Notes under the pieces: generated by a model
Database searches by the model: none
What the model saw: the letters and a program-made list of their open reading frames with translations, nothing else
What the model was told of the DNA's origin: nothing
Position numbers and translations under genes: made by a program
In this document: piece by piece, positions 5,320 to 26,281 of the stretch
How positions within the stretch are numbered: position 1 is the stretch's first letter
Layout: each line of letters opens with the position of its first letter
Source: Pseudobdellovibrionaceae bacterium
GTDB taxonomy: Bacteria; Bdellovibrionota; Bdellovibrionia; Bdellovibrionales; Bdellovibrionaceae
Direction of reading: 5' to 3'
DNA: 64,000 bases
NCBI GenBank assembly: GCA_019637915.1
Contig: JAHBUV010000001.1
Location: forward strand, 2,822,565 to 2,886,564

Positions 5320-6171
5320 TTAGGAAGTCAACGGCGCATCCAAGTCGTCCCGCAGGCCCTCGATTCGCTGCAGCACGAGCTGCAAGGCCTTGATTTTACG
5401 GTCGCGGATCTGTTCTTCCCGGGAGGACAGGGGGGCCAGGGGCTCCGCCGCTTCCGTGCGCAGGCCGAGCTGCGAGGTGCGCCGTCGCTGCAACAAAATC
5501 TGTCGCTGCCGGATCTCGTTGTCCTCGCCGAATTCCTGACGGGTTTCATCCAGGAGCTGCGAGGCGCGGTTCAGGTCGTTGCGCACGATGAAGGCGTCGA
5601 TCAAAGAGAGCATGCGCAGGAGCGCCCCGCCGGGCGCGGCGCCGCGGTCCTTCGCCGCCGGCGCGGGGTCGCCGTCACGGGCGATGACCGTCGCGGGCTC
5701 CGGAGCCTGCAGCGGCGTCAGCTTCGTCATCGCGAAGATCTCTTCCTCGTACTCATCCGCCGTCAGGCTCTCGAGTTTCTCGACGATCCGCCGCGCTTTT
5801 TCCGCCTGCGGATTCAGGAACAGGATGCGTTTGAAAACGCGCAAAGCCTCTTTGGGGCGTTTGGCTTCGAGGTGGGATTCCCCCAGCAGCTGCAGGGCCA
5901 GGAGGTTCCCCGGCGCGAAGTGCACGGCCTTGTTCAGGGCCTCCATGGCCTCGCGCGGGCGGTTCAGCTCCTTCAGGATTTTTCCGTAGACCACCCAGCC
6001 GCCGGCGAATTCGGGATGGCGTTGCACGCCGTCCGACGCCACGCGCGCGGCCTCCGCCAGGCGTTGCTCCGAGCGGTAAGCTTCCGCCAAAGGCGCGAAG
6101 ACCTGGGAGGTGGGGTCTTTTCGCAACACTTCTTCGAAGCGGGCGACCGCATCGGATGAAAATTGAGGCAT
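5320..6171 (-). CDS. TPR-repeat protein
   Basis: A 283-residue soluble protein. The N-terminal half contains at least three tetratricopeptide repeats with the usual spacing (for example APLAEAYRSEQRLAEAARVA and ALQLLGESHLEAKRPKEALR). The C-terminal half is charged and may be coiled coil. No signal peptide or membrane segment is seen, so a cytoplasmic scaffold is likely. The start is placed at the methionine of MPQFSSDAV; an in-frame ATG ten codons upstream (6201) is also possible and neither has a strong ribosome site. It precedes efp on the same strand and is divergent from ruvC. Confidence 0.8.
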   Translation of the reverse strand: MPQFSSDAVARFEEVLRKDPTSQVFAPLAEAYRSEQRLAEAARVASDGVQRHPEFAGGWVVYGKILKELNRPREAMEALNKAVHFAPGNLLALQLLGESHLEAKRPKEALRVFKRILFLNPQAEKARRIVEKLESLTADEYEEEIFAMTKLTPLQAPEPATVIARDGDPAPAAKDRGAAPGGALLRMLSLIDAFIVRNDLNRASQLLDETRQEFGEDNEIRQRQILLQRRRTSQLGLRTEAAEPLAPLSSREEQIRDRKIKALQLVLQRIEGLRDDLDAPLTS

Positions 6172-22670: not shown

Positions 22671-23378
22671 ATGAACACGAGACGGAATAAGACCACCGCC
22701 GCGATTCTGACGGGCTTCGTCCTTTGTTTGCTCTTTCAGAACGGCAGCCTGGTGAACTGGGATGAGGCCACTCTGGAACGGGTGGACCTGACCATTCGCA
22801 ACACCCACGCCCGCGAGCTTTTGGGCGTGCACTACAAGGAGAGCGCGGCGCGCTTCCACGAGGCCAATGCCGAGCTTTCGAAAGTCATTTACCAGCGCGT
22901 GAAGAGCCGTTTGCCGGCGAGCCACACGCGGCAGGCGGGGGCGGTGACCCGCGCCATCCTGAGCGAGAGCAAGACGCACAATTTCGACCCGGTGTTCGTC
23001 CTGGCGGTCATCGAGACGGAATCGCAGTTTAACCCTTACGCCATCGGCGGCGTCGGCGAGATCGGCCTGATGCAGATCCGCCCGGAAACGGGGGAGTGGA
23101 TCAGCGAGAAGCTCAACATGCCCTGGATCGGTTCGGAGAGCCTGAAGAACCCCGTCGTCAACGTCAAGATCGGCATCGCCTACATGGCGTGGCTGCGCCA
23201 GCAGATGGGACCGAACTCCGTGCGCTACGTGGCGGCCTACAACATGGGCCCGCAGGCCGTGCGCCGGCTGATCGCCCAAAACCAGAAGCCGAAGGAGTAC
23301 CGCAGCCGCGTGCTCGCCAACTACGAGCACCTCTACCGCACCCTCCCGGCCGCCGGCGTCGCCACCGCCAAACTCTAA
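22671..23378 (+). CDS. Lytic transglycosylase (SLT domain)
   Basis: A 235-residue exported murein lytic transglycosylase. An N-terminal hydrophobic segment (TTAAILTGFVLCLLFQNG) serves as signal or anchor. The SLT domain spans about residues 90-220, with catalytic E117 in IETESQFNPYA, then GEIGLMQIRPETG, NPVVNVKIGIAYMAWLR and the AAYNMGP motif. It cleaves the MurNAc-GlcNAc bond with 1,6-anhydro formation. AGGGAGG precedes the ATG. The stop codon TAA is immediately followed by, and lies inside, the first copy of the 99-bp inverted repeat. Confidence 0.93.
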   Translation: MNTRRNKTTAAILTGFVLCLLFQNGSLVNWDEATLERVDLTIRNTHARELLGVHYKESAARFHEANAELSKVIYQRVKSRLPASHTRQAGAVTRAILSESKTHNFDPVFVLAVIETESQFNPYAIGGVGEIGLMQIRPETGEWISEKLNMPWIGSESLKNPVVNVKIGIAYMAWLRQQMGPNSVRYVAAYNMGPQAVRRLIAQNQKPKEYRSRVLANYEHLYRTLPAAGVATAKL

Positions 23379-23473
23379 CCGGTGCCAGCTCCTCTTTCGG
23401 GCCGCCCCGCGTCCCCGGAAGGTGCCAGGCTCTGTTTGGAGATGCGCCGCATCTCCAAACAGAGCCTGGCACC
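23375..23473 (+). repeat. 99-bp palindromic repeat, copy 1
   Basis: Copy 1 of a pair of inverted repeats. It begins with CTAACCGGTGCCAG, where TAA is the stop of the transglycosylase gene, and contains a near-perfect hairpin with 31-bp arms (23416-23446 and 23448-23478) around a single central base. The motif GGTGCCAG recurs at 23381 and 23421 and in inverse at the far side. It fills the gap between two convergent genes. It differs from copy 2 by only two bases, which pair with each other (23432 and 23462). Confidence 0.95.
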
Positions 23474-23478
23474 TTCCG

Positions 23479-23862
23479 CTAATTCAAACGCACTTTGATT
23501 TTGTGCTTCGTCGTCGACTTGCAGAGGGTTTCCATGGCCGTCGTCGAGCATTGCGGGGAGCCGCAGCTCAAGGTCAGGAGCTTGTTCTCCTGGTTGAGCT
23601 CTTTCATCTCTTTTTTCCATTCATCGCAAGCCTTCTTCCAATTGGAGCGGGCCTCTTTCTGCAAGGGGGCGGGATCACCGGCGAGTTCATCAGAGCCTTC
23701 GGTGATCTCGAATTTGATCTCTTCGGCCTGACGGCCTTTTTTGATCGAAATGGTGGTGTCTTCGCTGGCGTCGATCTTGTTCACTTTGACGCCCATTTCC
23801 TGCGCGGACGCGGCGAGACCGAGCGAGAGGGGGATGAGAAAGGCGGCGAGGGACTTGATCAT
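23479..23862 (-). CDS. Small exported protein of unknown function
   Basis: A 127-residue protein with a signal peptide (MIKSLAAFLIPLSLGLAASA, cleavage near residue 20). The mature part is charged, with a beta-like N-terminal stretch (GVKVNKIDASEDTTISIKKG), a helical middle (KKACDEWKKEMKELNQENK) and four cysteines, three of them near the end (LSCGSPQCSTTAMETLCKS), compatible with a disulfide-bonded periplasmic fold. I do not recognise a family. It is divergent from the hydrolase gene, and the two occupy the island between the inverted repeats. Confidence 0.7.
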   Translation of the reverse strand: MIKSLAAFLIPLSLGLAASAQEMGVKVNKIDASEDTTISIKKGRQAEEIKFEITEGSDELAGDPAPLQKEARSNWKKACDEWKKEMKELNQENKLLTLSCGSPQCSTTAMETLCKSTTKHKIKVRLN

Positions 23863-23914
23863 GGGAACCTCCTTGGACCATCATGGTGATTATCCGCGAG
23901 CAAAGGATGAAGTC

Positions 23915-25042
23915 ATGAGAAAATTGTTTCTGCCGCTGGCCGGGATGCTTTTCGTCCTCTCGTTGCTGAACATCATGCTGCCTTTTGACCTCATCACCTG
24001 GCGCCTGTCCGTGGTGACGAAGGAGTACGGTCACTTCTTTTTTCTACTGGGCGCGTTTTTTGCCCTGATGAGCTGGCGCGACAAGGACATTCCCAGCGTG
24101 CTGCTGTTCGCCTTCGCGTCTTTTTTCTTCGCACGCCCGATGATGATGGCTTGGTCGGGGGAATCCGCCTGGCGGAGGGAATTTGCCCAAACCTTGGGAG
24201 AGGAAAAACCTTTGCCGCCGCTGCTGTCGCTGAAGACCCTGTTCTTCGGGCGGGGCCTGTTGTCGGCGCCGTATGAGCGGCTGGTTTATGCCAAGTCCGA
24301 TGGCGAAGATCTGCATTTGGATTTTTATCGCGCGACCCCAGCGCCTTCGGGCCCTGTTCCTTGGGTGCTGGTCCTTCACGGCGGTGGCTGGGAGGGCGGA
24401 AGTTCGGATCAGCTGCCCGAGCTGAATTGGCATTTGGCGCGGCAGGGCTATGCGGTGATTTCGATGAGCTATCGGTTTTCACCGAAGCATCCATGGCCCG
24501 CCCAGCGTGAAGACGCTCTGGCGGCTTTGCATTACGTGCGCGAGCACGCGGCCGGAATGGGGCTTGATCTGAACCGCTGGTTCGTGCTCGGCCGTTCGGC
24601 GGGCGCGCAGATCGCCGGTGTTCTCGCGTACACGTTGAAGGATCCGGGCTTGCGTGGCTATATTTCCTTTTATCCGCCCACGGATCTGACCTTCGGTTAC
24701 GAGGTGGGGGAGGAGAACGATCTTTTGGCCTCGCGCTCCCTGGTCCGGCGCTTTCTGAAGGGTTCACCGCAGGAGAACGCCCCCAATTATCAAAGTTCCT
24801 CCGTCATCGAGGCCTTGGCGAATCATCCGGTCCCGACCCTGCTCCTTCATGGGCGCACTGATCTGCTGACGTGGTTCAAGCACAGCGAAAGACTCGCTCT
24901 GCGCCTGCAGGCCCTGAACGTCCCTTATGCTTATGTCGATTACCCTTGGGCCACGCACGGCTTTGACTACAACCTCAACGGTCCCGCCGGCCAAATCAGC
25001 ACGACCCTGATCGACAGCTTCCTCCAGCGCTTCTCCCGCTGA
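23915..25042 (+). CDS. Membrane-anchored alpha/beta hydrolase, esterase-like
   Basis: A 375-residue protein with two or three N-terminal membrane helices (LFLPLAGMLFVLSLLNIM, HFFFLLGAFFALMSW) and a hydrolase domain from about residue 110. The oxyanion motif HGGGW and nucleophile elbow GRSAGAQ place it in the hormone-sensitive-lipase-like carboxylesterase group; the acid is likely the aspartate of LLHGRTDLL and the base the histidine of WATHGFDYN. The substrate is unknown. The start at 23915 has AAAGGA upstream. It lies within the inverted-repeat island and converges on rodA. Confidence 0.88.
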   Translation: MRKLFLPLAGMLFVLSLLNIMLPFDLITWRLSVVTKEYGHFFFLLGAFFALMSWRDKDIPSVLLFAFASFFFARPMMMAWSGESAWRREFAQTLGEEKPLPPLLSLKTLFFGRGLLSAPYERLVYAKSDGEDLHLDFYRATPAPSGPVPWVLVLHGGGWEGGSSDQLPELNWHLARQGYAVISMSYRFSPKHPWPAQREDALAALHYVREHAAGMGLDLNRWFVLGRSAGAQIAGVLAYTLKDPGLRGYISFYPPTDLTFGYEVGEENDLLASRSLVRRFLKGSPQENAPNYQSSSVIEALANHPVPTLLLHGRTDLLTWFKHSERLALRLQALNVPYAYVDYPWATHGFDYNLNGPAGQISTTLIDSFLQRFSR

Positions 25043-25058
25043 AGCCACGTCCCCAAAG

Positions 25059-25157
25059 GGTGCCAGGCTGTGTTTGGAGATGCGGCGCATCTCCAAACAC
25101 AGCCTGGCACCTTCCGGGGACGCGGGGCGGCCCGAAAGAGGAGCTGGCACCGGTTAG
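25059..25157 (-). repeat. 99-bp palindromic repeat, copy 2 (inverted)
   Basis: Reverse-oriented copy of the repeat at 23375-23473, with hairpin arms at 25059-25084 and 25086-25111. Read on the minus strand it begins with CTAACCGGTGCC, where TAA is the stop codon of rodA. Compared with copy 1 it has GCTGTGTTT instead of GCTCTGTTT and the matching change in the opposite arm, so base pairing is kept. Confidence 0.95.
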
Positions 25158-26281
25158 AAGAGGTAGCGGCGGAAGGCGACGCTGGAGATGAGCCCGAGGC
25201 CGGCCATGGTCGTGAGCATGGAGGAGCCGCCGTAGCTGAGCAAAGGCAAGGGCACGCCGACGATGGGCAGCAGGCCGATCACCATGCTGATGTTCACGAA
25301 CATGTGCCAGAAGACGTAGGACAGCACCCCCACGCAGAGCAGGGCGCCGAACTTGTCCCGGGCGTTCATGGCGATGCGGATGATGATCACGAAGAGCAGG
25401 CAGAACAATCCCGCCGTCGTGATCGAACCGACGAAGCCATGCTCCTCGCTCAGGACGGAATAAATGAAATCCGTGTGGCGCTCGGGCAGGAATTCCAGCT
25501 GCGATTGCGTGCCTTTGCGGAAGCCCTTGCCGAAGAATTTGCCGGAGCCCACCGCGATCTTCGACTGGATGCTGTTGTACCCGGTGCGCAGCGGGTCGTT
25601 CTCGGGGGAGATGAAGGTCAGCACGCGGTTCTTCTGGTAATCGCGCAGCACGAAATTCCAGGCGCCCCACACGCTGATCATGCCGATCACCACGGCGCTC
25701 AGCAGGATGGATTTGCGCACCTTCGAGAACAGGATCATCGAGCCGCCGATCGAGGCGAGCATCATAGCGGTCCCCAGATCCGGCTGCTCGACGATGAACA
25801 CGAAAGGCACCAGCAGGATGAGCAGGGGGATGAAAAGCTCGCGGAAGCCCATGCCGCGGCCGAAGCTCGAGCGCGTCGACAGGATTTTCGCCAGCAGCAT
25901 GATCAGAGCGAGTTTCATGGTCTCGGAGGGCTGGTAGCGGAAAAAACCGAAGTCGATCCAGCGCTGCGCGCCCAGGGCCACCTTCCCGAAAAAGGTGGTG
26001 TAGATGATGGCGCTGAAGTTCAGGACATAGATCGCCAGCGCCATCTTGGCGACGATCGCGTAATCGATCAGCGTGACGATGAAGAAGATGCACCAGCCGG
26101 CCAGCAGCCAAACGATCTGGTTCAGGAACAACGGCGCCACGTCGCGCGAACTCGGGCCGTGGGTGGCGCTGTACAGATTGATCAGGCCGATGATGTTGAG
26201 GGCCAGGATCACCAGGATGAAATTCAGATCGAGGCGTTTGAAGATGGTTCTCTCTTCGACGTGAAAGCCCGTCATTTCCAT
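25154..26281 (-). CDS. rodA: Rod-shape SEDS glycosyltransferase RodA
   Basis: RodA, 375 residues, the SEDS-family peptidoglycan glycosyltransferase of the elongasome, with about ten membrane helices. Signature regions are FFRYQPSETMKLALI, VEQPDLGTAMM, ERHTDFIYSVLSEEHGF and the C-terminal PLPLLSYGGSSML. Its ATG lies one base after the stop of the PBP2 gene, with GGAAGGGG upstream, so the two partner proteins are coupled. Its stop lies within repeat copy 2. Confidence 0.97.
   Translation of the reverse strand: MEMTGFHVEERTIFKRLDLNFILVILALNIIGLINLYSATHGPSSRDVAPLFLNQIVWLLAGWCIFFIVTLIDYAIVAKMALAIYVLNFSAIIYTTFFGKVALGAQRWIDFGFFRYQPSETMKLALIMLLAKILSTRSSFGRGMGFRELFIPLLILLVPFVFIVEQPDLGTAMMLASIGGSMILFSKVRKSILLSAVVIGMISVWGAWNFVLRDYQKNRVLTFISPENDPLRTGYNSIQSKIAVGSGKFFGKGFRKGTQSQLEFLPERHTDFIYSVLSEEHGFVGSITTAGLFCLLFVIIIRIAMNARDKFGALLCVGVLSYVFWHMFVNISMVIGLLPIVGVPLPLLSYGGSSMLTTMAGLGLISSVAFRRYLF

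Follow-up and report, generated by a model that had tools for sequence, protein, structure and literature searches.

A pair of near-identical inverted repeats in the window, the 64,000-nucleotide stretch of a Pseudobdellovibrionaceae genome that we analyzed, belongs to a palindrome family distributed throughout this genome and several of its relatives. These repeats are most probably (we put this at roughly 0.85) minimal nonautonomous elements, REPINs or TIR dimers, of a RAYT/TIRYT system, which have spread in trans and have been kept mainly in the gaps between convergent genes.

The repeat pair in the window

The inverted arms, at 23374-23473 and 25059-25158, are 100 nt each and 98% complementary, with 1585 nt between them. 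The features of this region are as follows (positions in the window).

22671-23378, plus strand: SLT-domain lytic transglycosylase; stop codon abuts copy 1
23375-23473, plus strand: composite repeat copy 1 (outer half-TIR, spacer, and 53-nt palindrome)
23381-23405, plus strand: outer half-TIR of copy 1, GGTGCCAGCTCCTCTTTCGGGCCGC; the outer TIR at the RAYT locus has an identical sequence
23421-23473, plus strand: 53-nt palindrome of copy 1, with 25-bp arms and a GCC center
23432-23462, plus strand: swapped pair, C23432 with G23462; counterparts in copy 2 at 25070 and 25100
23479-23862, minus strand: small exported protein without a match in Pfam or NCBIfam; its orthologue adjoins rodA in G004, G010, and G027
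23915-25042, plus strand: membrane-anchored alpha/beta-hydrolase (Abhydrolase_3/BD-FAE), an accessory gene
25059-25157, minus strand: composite repeat copy 2, inverted
25059-25111, minus strand: 53-nt palindrome of copy 2
25127-25151, minus strand: outer half-TIR of copy 2
25154-26281, minus strand: rodA; stop codon abuts copy 2

Each 99-bp unit combines a palindrome of 53 nt with a 25-nt half-copy that is separate from it and directly oriented; the two starts are 40 nt apart. The original prediction had treated all 99 bp as one palindrome; the repeat is real, but the palindrome itself accounts for only 53 nt and the half-copy stands apart from it. Sequence comparison bore out the prediction of near-identical inverted copies whose two differences pair with each other: the sole differences are at 23432 and 23462, palindrome positions 12 and 42, which form a C-G pair in copy 1 and a G-C pair in copy 2 (25070/25100, in that copy's own orientation). 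Pairing in the copy 1 palindrome extends over 63 nt, and the RNA fold z-score of the window hairpin (-9.8) is far stronger than that of shuffled sequences. The copies also begin at host stop codons and fill the adjoining gaps, as had been claimed. Copy 1 begins at the SLT transglycosylase stop codon (TAA, 23376-23378), occupying the gap before the small gene, and copy 2, between the esterase and rodA, ends at the rodA stop (TTA, 25154-25156). An Rfam search of the hairpin returned only microRNA-precursor matches, far under the gathering score, as generic long hairpins do, and the 99-bp unit had zero matches in phage and plasmid collections.

A palindrome family and its probable RAYT

The genome comparison set comprised 60 genomes, namely the host (G000; 3.32 Mb, main contig of 3.26 Mb) and 59 relatives, with one genome per species and no reads. 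Searching for GGTGCCAG-N-CTGGCACC with permitted spans of 16 to 76 nt, we found 19 palindromes in the host genome, every one exactly 53 nt long (25-bp arms and a 3-nt center), versus 0 occurrences of a reversed control pattern. Pairing was perfect over 25 bp in 14 of the 19. Beyond the window, the host carries three more full-length copies of the composite unit (80-83% to the 99-bp unit), and many palindrome-only copies are scattered over the whole chromosome. The pattern was present in 17 of the 60 genomes and 14 of 41 genera, with a span of mostly 53 nt, so that the search of genome and relatives suggested with the original prediction did find the unit elsewhere. Dispersal of the repeat over the 3.26-Mb contig and its presence in relatives rule out assembly duplication as the source of the copies.

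The 53-nt span recurs with differing arm sequences in the host, G001, G002, G013, G021, G042, G044, and G054; spans are variable in G029. Among the 15 palindromes of G042, the arms are nearly identical and the central 3 nt are free (ACA, GCA, TTT, AAA, GAT, and TCT, among others). Most host palindromes are flanked by AAAA...TTTT, while flanks elsewhere are A-rich or TA. When flanks were compared in G000 and relatives, a GTAG or GTGG tetranucleotide was absent 0 to 2 nt 5' of the hairpin foot at the palindromes examined. We considered whether the elements provide host genes with their stop codon, CTAA, but copies distant from gene ends lack it. Palindromes less than 3 kb apart are more alike than random same-genome pairs (permutation p = 1e-4), so the two window copies can be nearly identical without any special island.

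The host genome encodes a RAYT, a 212-amino-acid Y1 transposase (G000:C1:670750-671388) that exceeds the Pfam Y1_Tnp cut-off and carries the HFH and YxxxNP motifs. It matches NCBIfam REP_Tyr_transpos with an E value of 1.4e-15, though below the curated cut-off, and matches TnpA-REP (PDB 4er8) weakly (E = 0.004). Its closest named relatives, among the matches listed, come from Bdellovibrionales metagenome genomes. The gene is bracketed by 56-bp TIRs (54/56 identical), each consisting of the outer half-copy that also occurs in the window together with an inner GGTGCCAGGTCCTG. The original prediction had likened the motif to REP/BIME sequences mobilized by RAYTs, and this hunch proved sound, since the unit occurs genome-wide and the genome does contain a RAYT with these repeats on either side; as the prediction had also noted, no transposase is close by, the RAYT being 2.2 Mb away. 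A second Y1 transposase gene (G000:C1:2222738-2223337) has its own TIR family, AGGTACCGCCTACTTTCTGGTACC, a further copy of which adjoins a 53-nt palindrome near 3199.4 kb of G000. A literature search on the motif or on RAYTs in Bdellovibrio found nothing.

Across the order, nearly all of the RAYT relatives scanned have a flanking inverted repeat, most of which begin with AAGGTRCC(A/T)G or similar. We compared palindrome arms (positions 9 to 25) with the TIR of the resident RAYT in six genomes that have both and obtained a mean match of 0.83 to the own TIR versus 0.67 over permutations, with 3 of 720 permutations equally good. This specificity signal is carried mainly by G021, G042, and G044, and the host row alone is not specific: the host RAYT TIR matches its own hairpins at 0.67, no better than it matches those of some other genomes. 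Most surveyed relatives that possess a RAYT lack the exact GGTGCCAG pattern, as is expected if their TIRs differ. G001, of the same genus as the host, has five palindromes and no detected RAYT in a draft that is 92% complete.

Paired changes, placement, and gene order

The original prediction read the paired swap in the window as directly showing that the hairpin is under selection. Paired changes turn out to be the rule in this family, and the swap is typical of it. In a set of 44 distinct palindromes with 17 free pairs, two-sided changes occur at 15 of the 17, and 94% of cells are paired compared to 69.5% after shuffling, a signal that is abolished by sliding the partners. Comparison of each palindrome with its nearest copy yielded 40 two-sided versus 21 one-sided changed pairs. 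The covariation check proposed at the outset thus came out in favor of pairing conserved in relatives. Paired changes of this kind fit selection on the hairpin and arm-to-arm DNA templating equally, and older paired differences are also compatible with an origin of the two arms from a single TIR; compensatory changes here need not imply selection for RNA structure. Fixed length and common compensatory changes were likewise reported for REPINs (PMC3116915), and Nunvar et al. described palindromicity as preserved (PMC2817692).

We assessed placement with crude gene calls from a simple hexamer gene finder, covering 40 palindromes in five genomes. Convergent gaps hold 20 of the 40, compared to a convergent share of 19% among the remaining gene pairs (p = 1e-5), and divergent gaps hold 3; REPs are similarly described as favoring convergent and unidirectional gaps (PMC3733652). 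That half of the hairpins lie in convergent gaps, often a few nucleotides from both stop codons, could mean that they are mainly host bidirectional terminators kept by RNA-structure selection, with the link to the RAYT secondary. Their layout of A-tract, GC-rich stem, and T-tract, seen in the AAAA...TTTT flanks of most host hairpins, agrees with such a role. So does the contrast within the window, where native convergent gaps of 90 to 112 nt contain ordinary two-way terminators and the hairpin gaps contain none except the repeat; the other convergent gaps there are overlaps or a few nucleotides, apart from one that a crude call puts at 215 nt. We nevertheless consider this explanation unlikely. 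The window copies run into TTCCG instead of a T run, convergent gaps are not the site of about half of the copies, arm sequence tracks the RAYT TIR, and AAAA is itself part of the TIR at many RAYT loci of the order. Mismatches (10 G-T versus 12 A-C) show no G-T excess, a weak test for palindromes, whose strand is not fixed.

The segment 23375-25157 could instead be a composite cassette that moves, or inverts, together with both of its genes, given that nearly identical inverted copies face outward at its two ends, the arrangement also seen at the RAYT locus. The esterase is accessory (5 of the 60 genomes), and genes enclosed by near-identical pairs of hairpins occur in G042 and G021 too. Gene order speaks against this reading, which we regard as very improbable. 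Read from rodA, the order is rodA> small> SLT> <thio in G004, rodA> small> <thio in G010 and G027, and rodA> SLT> <thio in G022; relative to these, it is the SLT gene that is flipped in the host. These orders make the small gene an ancestral neighbor of rodA, with the orientation that it has in the window. The bracketed pair therefore did not arrive as a unit, and compared to the ancestor the segment is not inverted. The two-gene island of the original prediction accordingly shrinks to one accessory gene, the esterase, and the inversion it envisaged finds no support, as the small gene keeps its ancestral orientation to rodA. Close hairpins are also similar in general, and the synteny of the small gene with rodA led us to reject the composite two-gene version. 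In G001, rodA has no hairpin downstream and ends at the same residue, a second point against a stop codon provided by the element. Downstream of rodA in that genome (G001:C161:1-3100) are repeat-rich genes for surface or tail-like proteins, together with a reading frame similar to a tyrosine recombinase.

At some loci, such as 584-586 kb, genes and hairpins alternate, which recalls integron-like or other tyrosine-recombinase cassettes with hairpin attachment sites. An integrase search produced none over the cut-off, its matches being ordinary tyrosine recombinases such as occur in 14 of 14 control genomes, and the hairpins are spread chromosome-wide and match RAYT TIRs; this alternative is extremely improbable.

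We therefore return to RAYT-linked elements as the preferred reading. The 53-nt palindrome would be two RAYT TIRs of ~25 nt placed back to back around 3 nt, and the direct half-copies at 40-nt spacing may be remnants of array (BIME-like) arrangements. The RAYT would cut and paste the single-stranded hairpin in trans, and insertions would survive chiefly between convergent genes, where they could double as a two-way end of transcription. The near identity of the window copies may stem from local spread or conversion, and their paired base change from arm-to-arm templating or stem-keeping selection. We infer the mobility of the hairpin elements; in this set, where each species is represented by a single genome, there was no direct sighting of transposition, excision, or an empty-site polymorphism.

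Known repeat systems and possible passenger genes

The closest described counterparts are TIRtrons, that is, TIRYT genes and TIR repeat families (Di Nocera et al. 2013, PMC3733652; Quentin et al. 2018, PMC6006769). As in those systems, the host has a RAYT-like Y1 transposase gene (HUH, single Tyr) between long inverted repeats that lack a GTAG tag (here 56 bp, 54/56), along with moderately abundant TIR repeats elsewhere in the genome, single or often dimeric. The TIR motif differs, being GGTRCC(A/T)G, starting GGTGCCAG, instead of GGGGWSAS, which is described as frequent (the majority of cases) but not obligatory; exact 53-nt TIR dimers with 25-bp arms also set the system apart. Bdellovibrionales are not named in the searched passages of either survey.

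Like REPINs (Bertels and Rainey 2011, PMC3116915), the palindromes are extragenic, linked to a RAYT, and composed of two inverted units that form one fixed-length hairpin with common compensatory changes. Unlike REPINs, their halves contain no separate REP palindrome and no GTAG, the whole length pairs, and copies number in the tens, not hundreds. Shared with REP/BIME systems (Nunvar et al. 2010, PMC2817692) are a RAYT gene between two inverted repeats, joint change of repeats and RAYT, and a location in convergent and unidirectional gaps, whereas the GTAG tag and short imperfect hairpin of those systems are missing from the Bdellovibrionales repeats. A TIR pair without a transposase gene, moved in trans (here by inference), is also the layout of MITEs and mobile insertion cassettes, though the transposase here is of the HUH/Y1 type, not the usual DDE type. 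Taken together, the system has the defining features of a TIRtron with a repeat family; being GTAG-less, the repeats are not GTAG REPs, and their format is REPIN-like. They are a new branch of a known bacterial repeat class.

The usual picture of RAYTs is one of domesticated transposases that have nothing but hairpin repeats to mobilize. At one host locus, a GNAT acetyltransferase gene (G000:C1:2805736-2806420) lies between 51-bp inverted repeats of the RAYT family (47/51), with no RAYT inside, in the convergent gap of folE and pepN. These two genes are direct neighbors in G002, G024, and G026, with gaps of ~40 to 100 nt and no intervening gene. The GNAT gene occurs in 3 of the 60 genomes and is unbracketed in the two others. 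It is possibly cargo, and the element would then be the cassette version of the MITE-like layout, although one case is no proof of mobility. We offer only tentatively the broader proposal that the Bdellovibrionales RAYT/TIR system moves passenger genes such as GNAT too, and that hairpins may renew by arm-to-arm copying, explaining the paired changes.

Other loci also combine genes with these repeats. In G042 (G042:C111:6963-8392), an AAA+ ATPase gene located between glpK and a convergent gene is bracketed by two TIR dimers, which are 79 nt long, compared to 53 nt as a rule. Near-identical gene copies lie ~6.3 kb apart at G000:C1:1505.1-1512.4 kb (5620-5985 and 11982-12347 in L058), the second with a 53-nt palindrome at its edge, and a DUF2239 gene (G000:C1:1502232-1503059) has a single half-TIR on one side and a full palindrome with matching arms on the other.

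Real mobility of the GNAT element, if it exists, would make RAYTs a gene-shuttling route as well. The palindrome family provides a clear case against taking compensatory base changes as proof of RNA-level selection. Finally, a whole order with many separate RAYT-repeat pairings in one hairpin format constitutes a natural experiment on the arm-sequence specificity of RAYTs.
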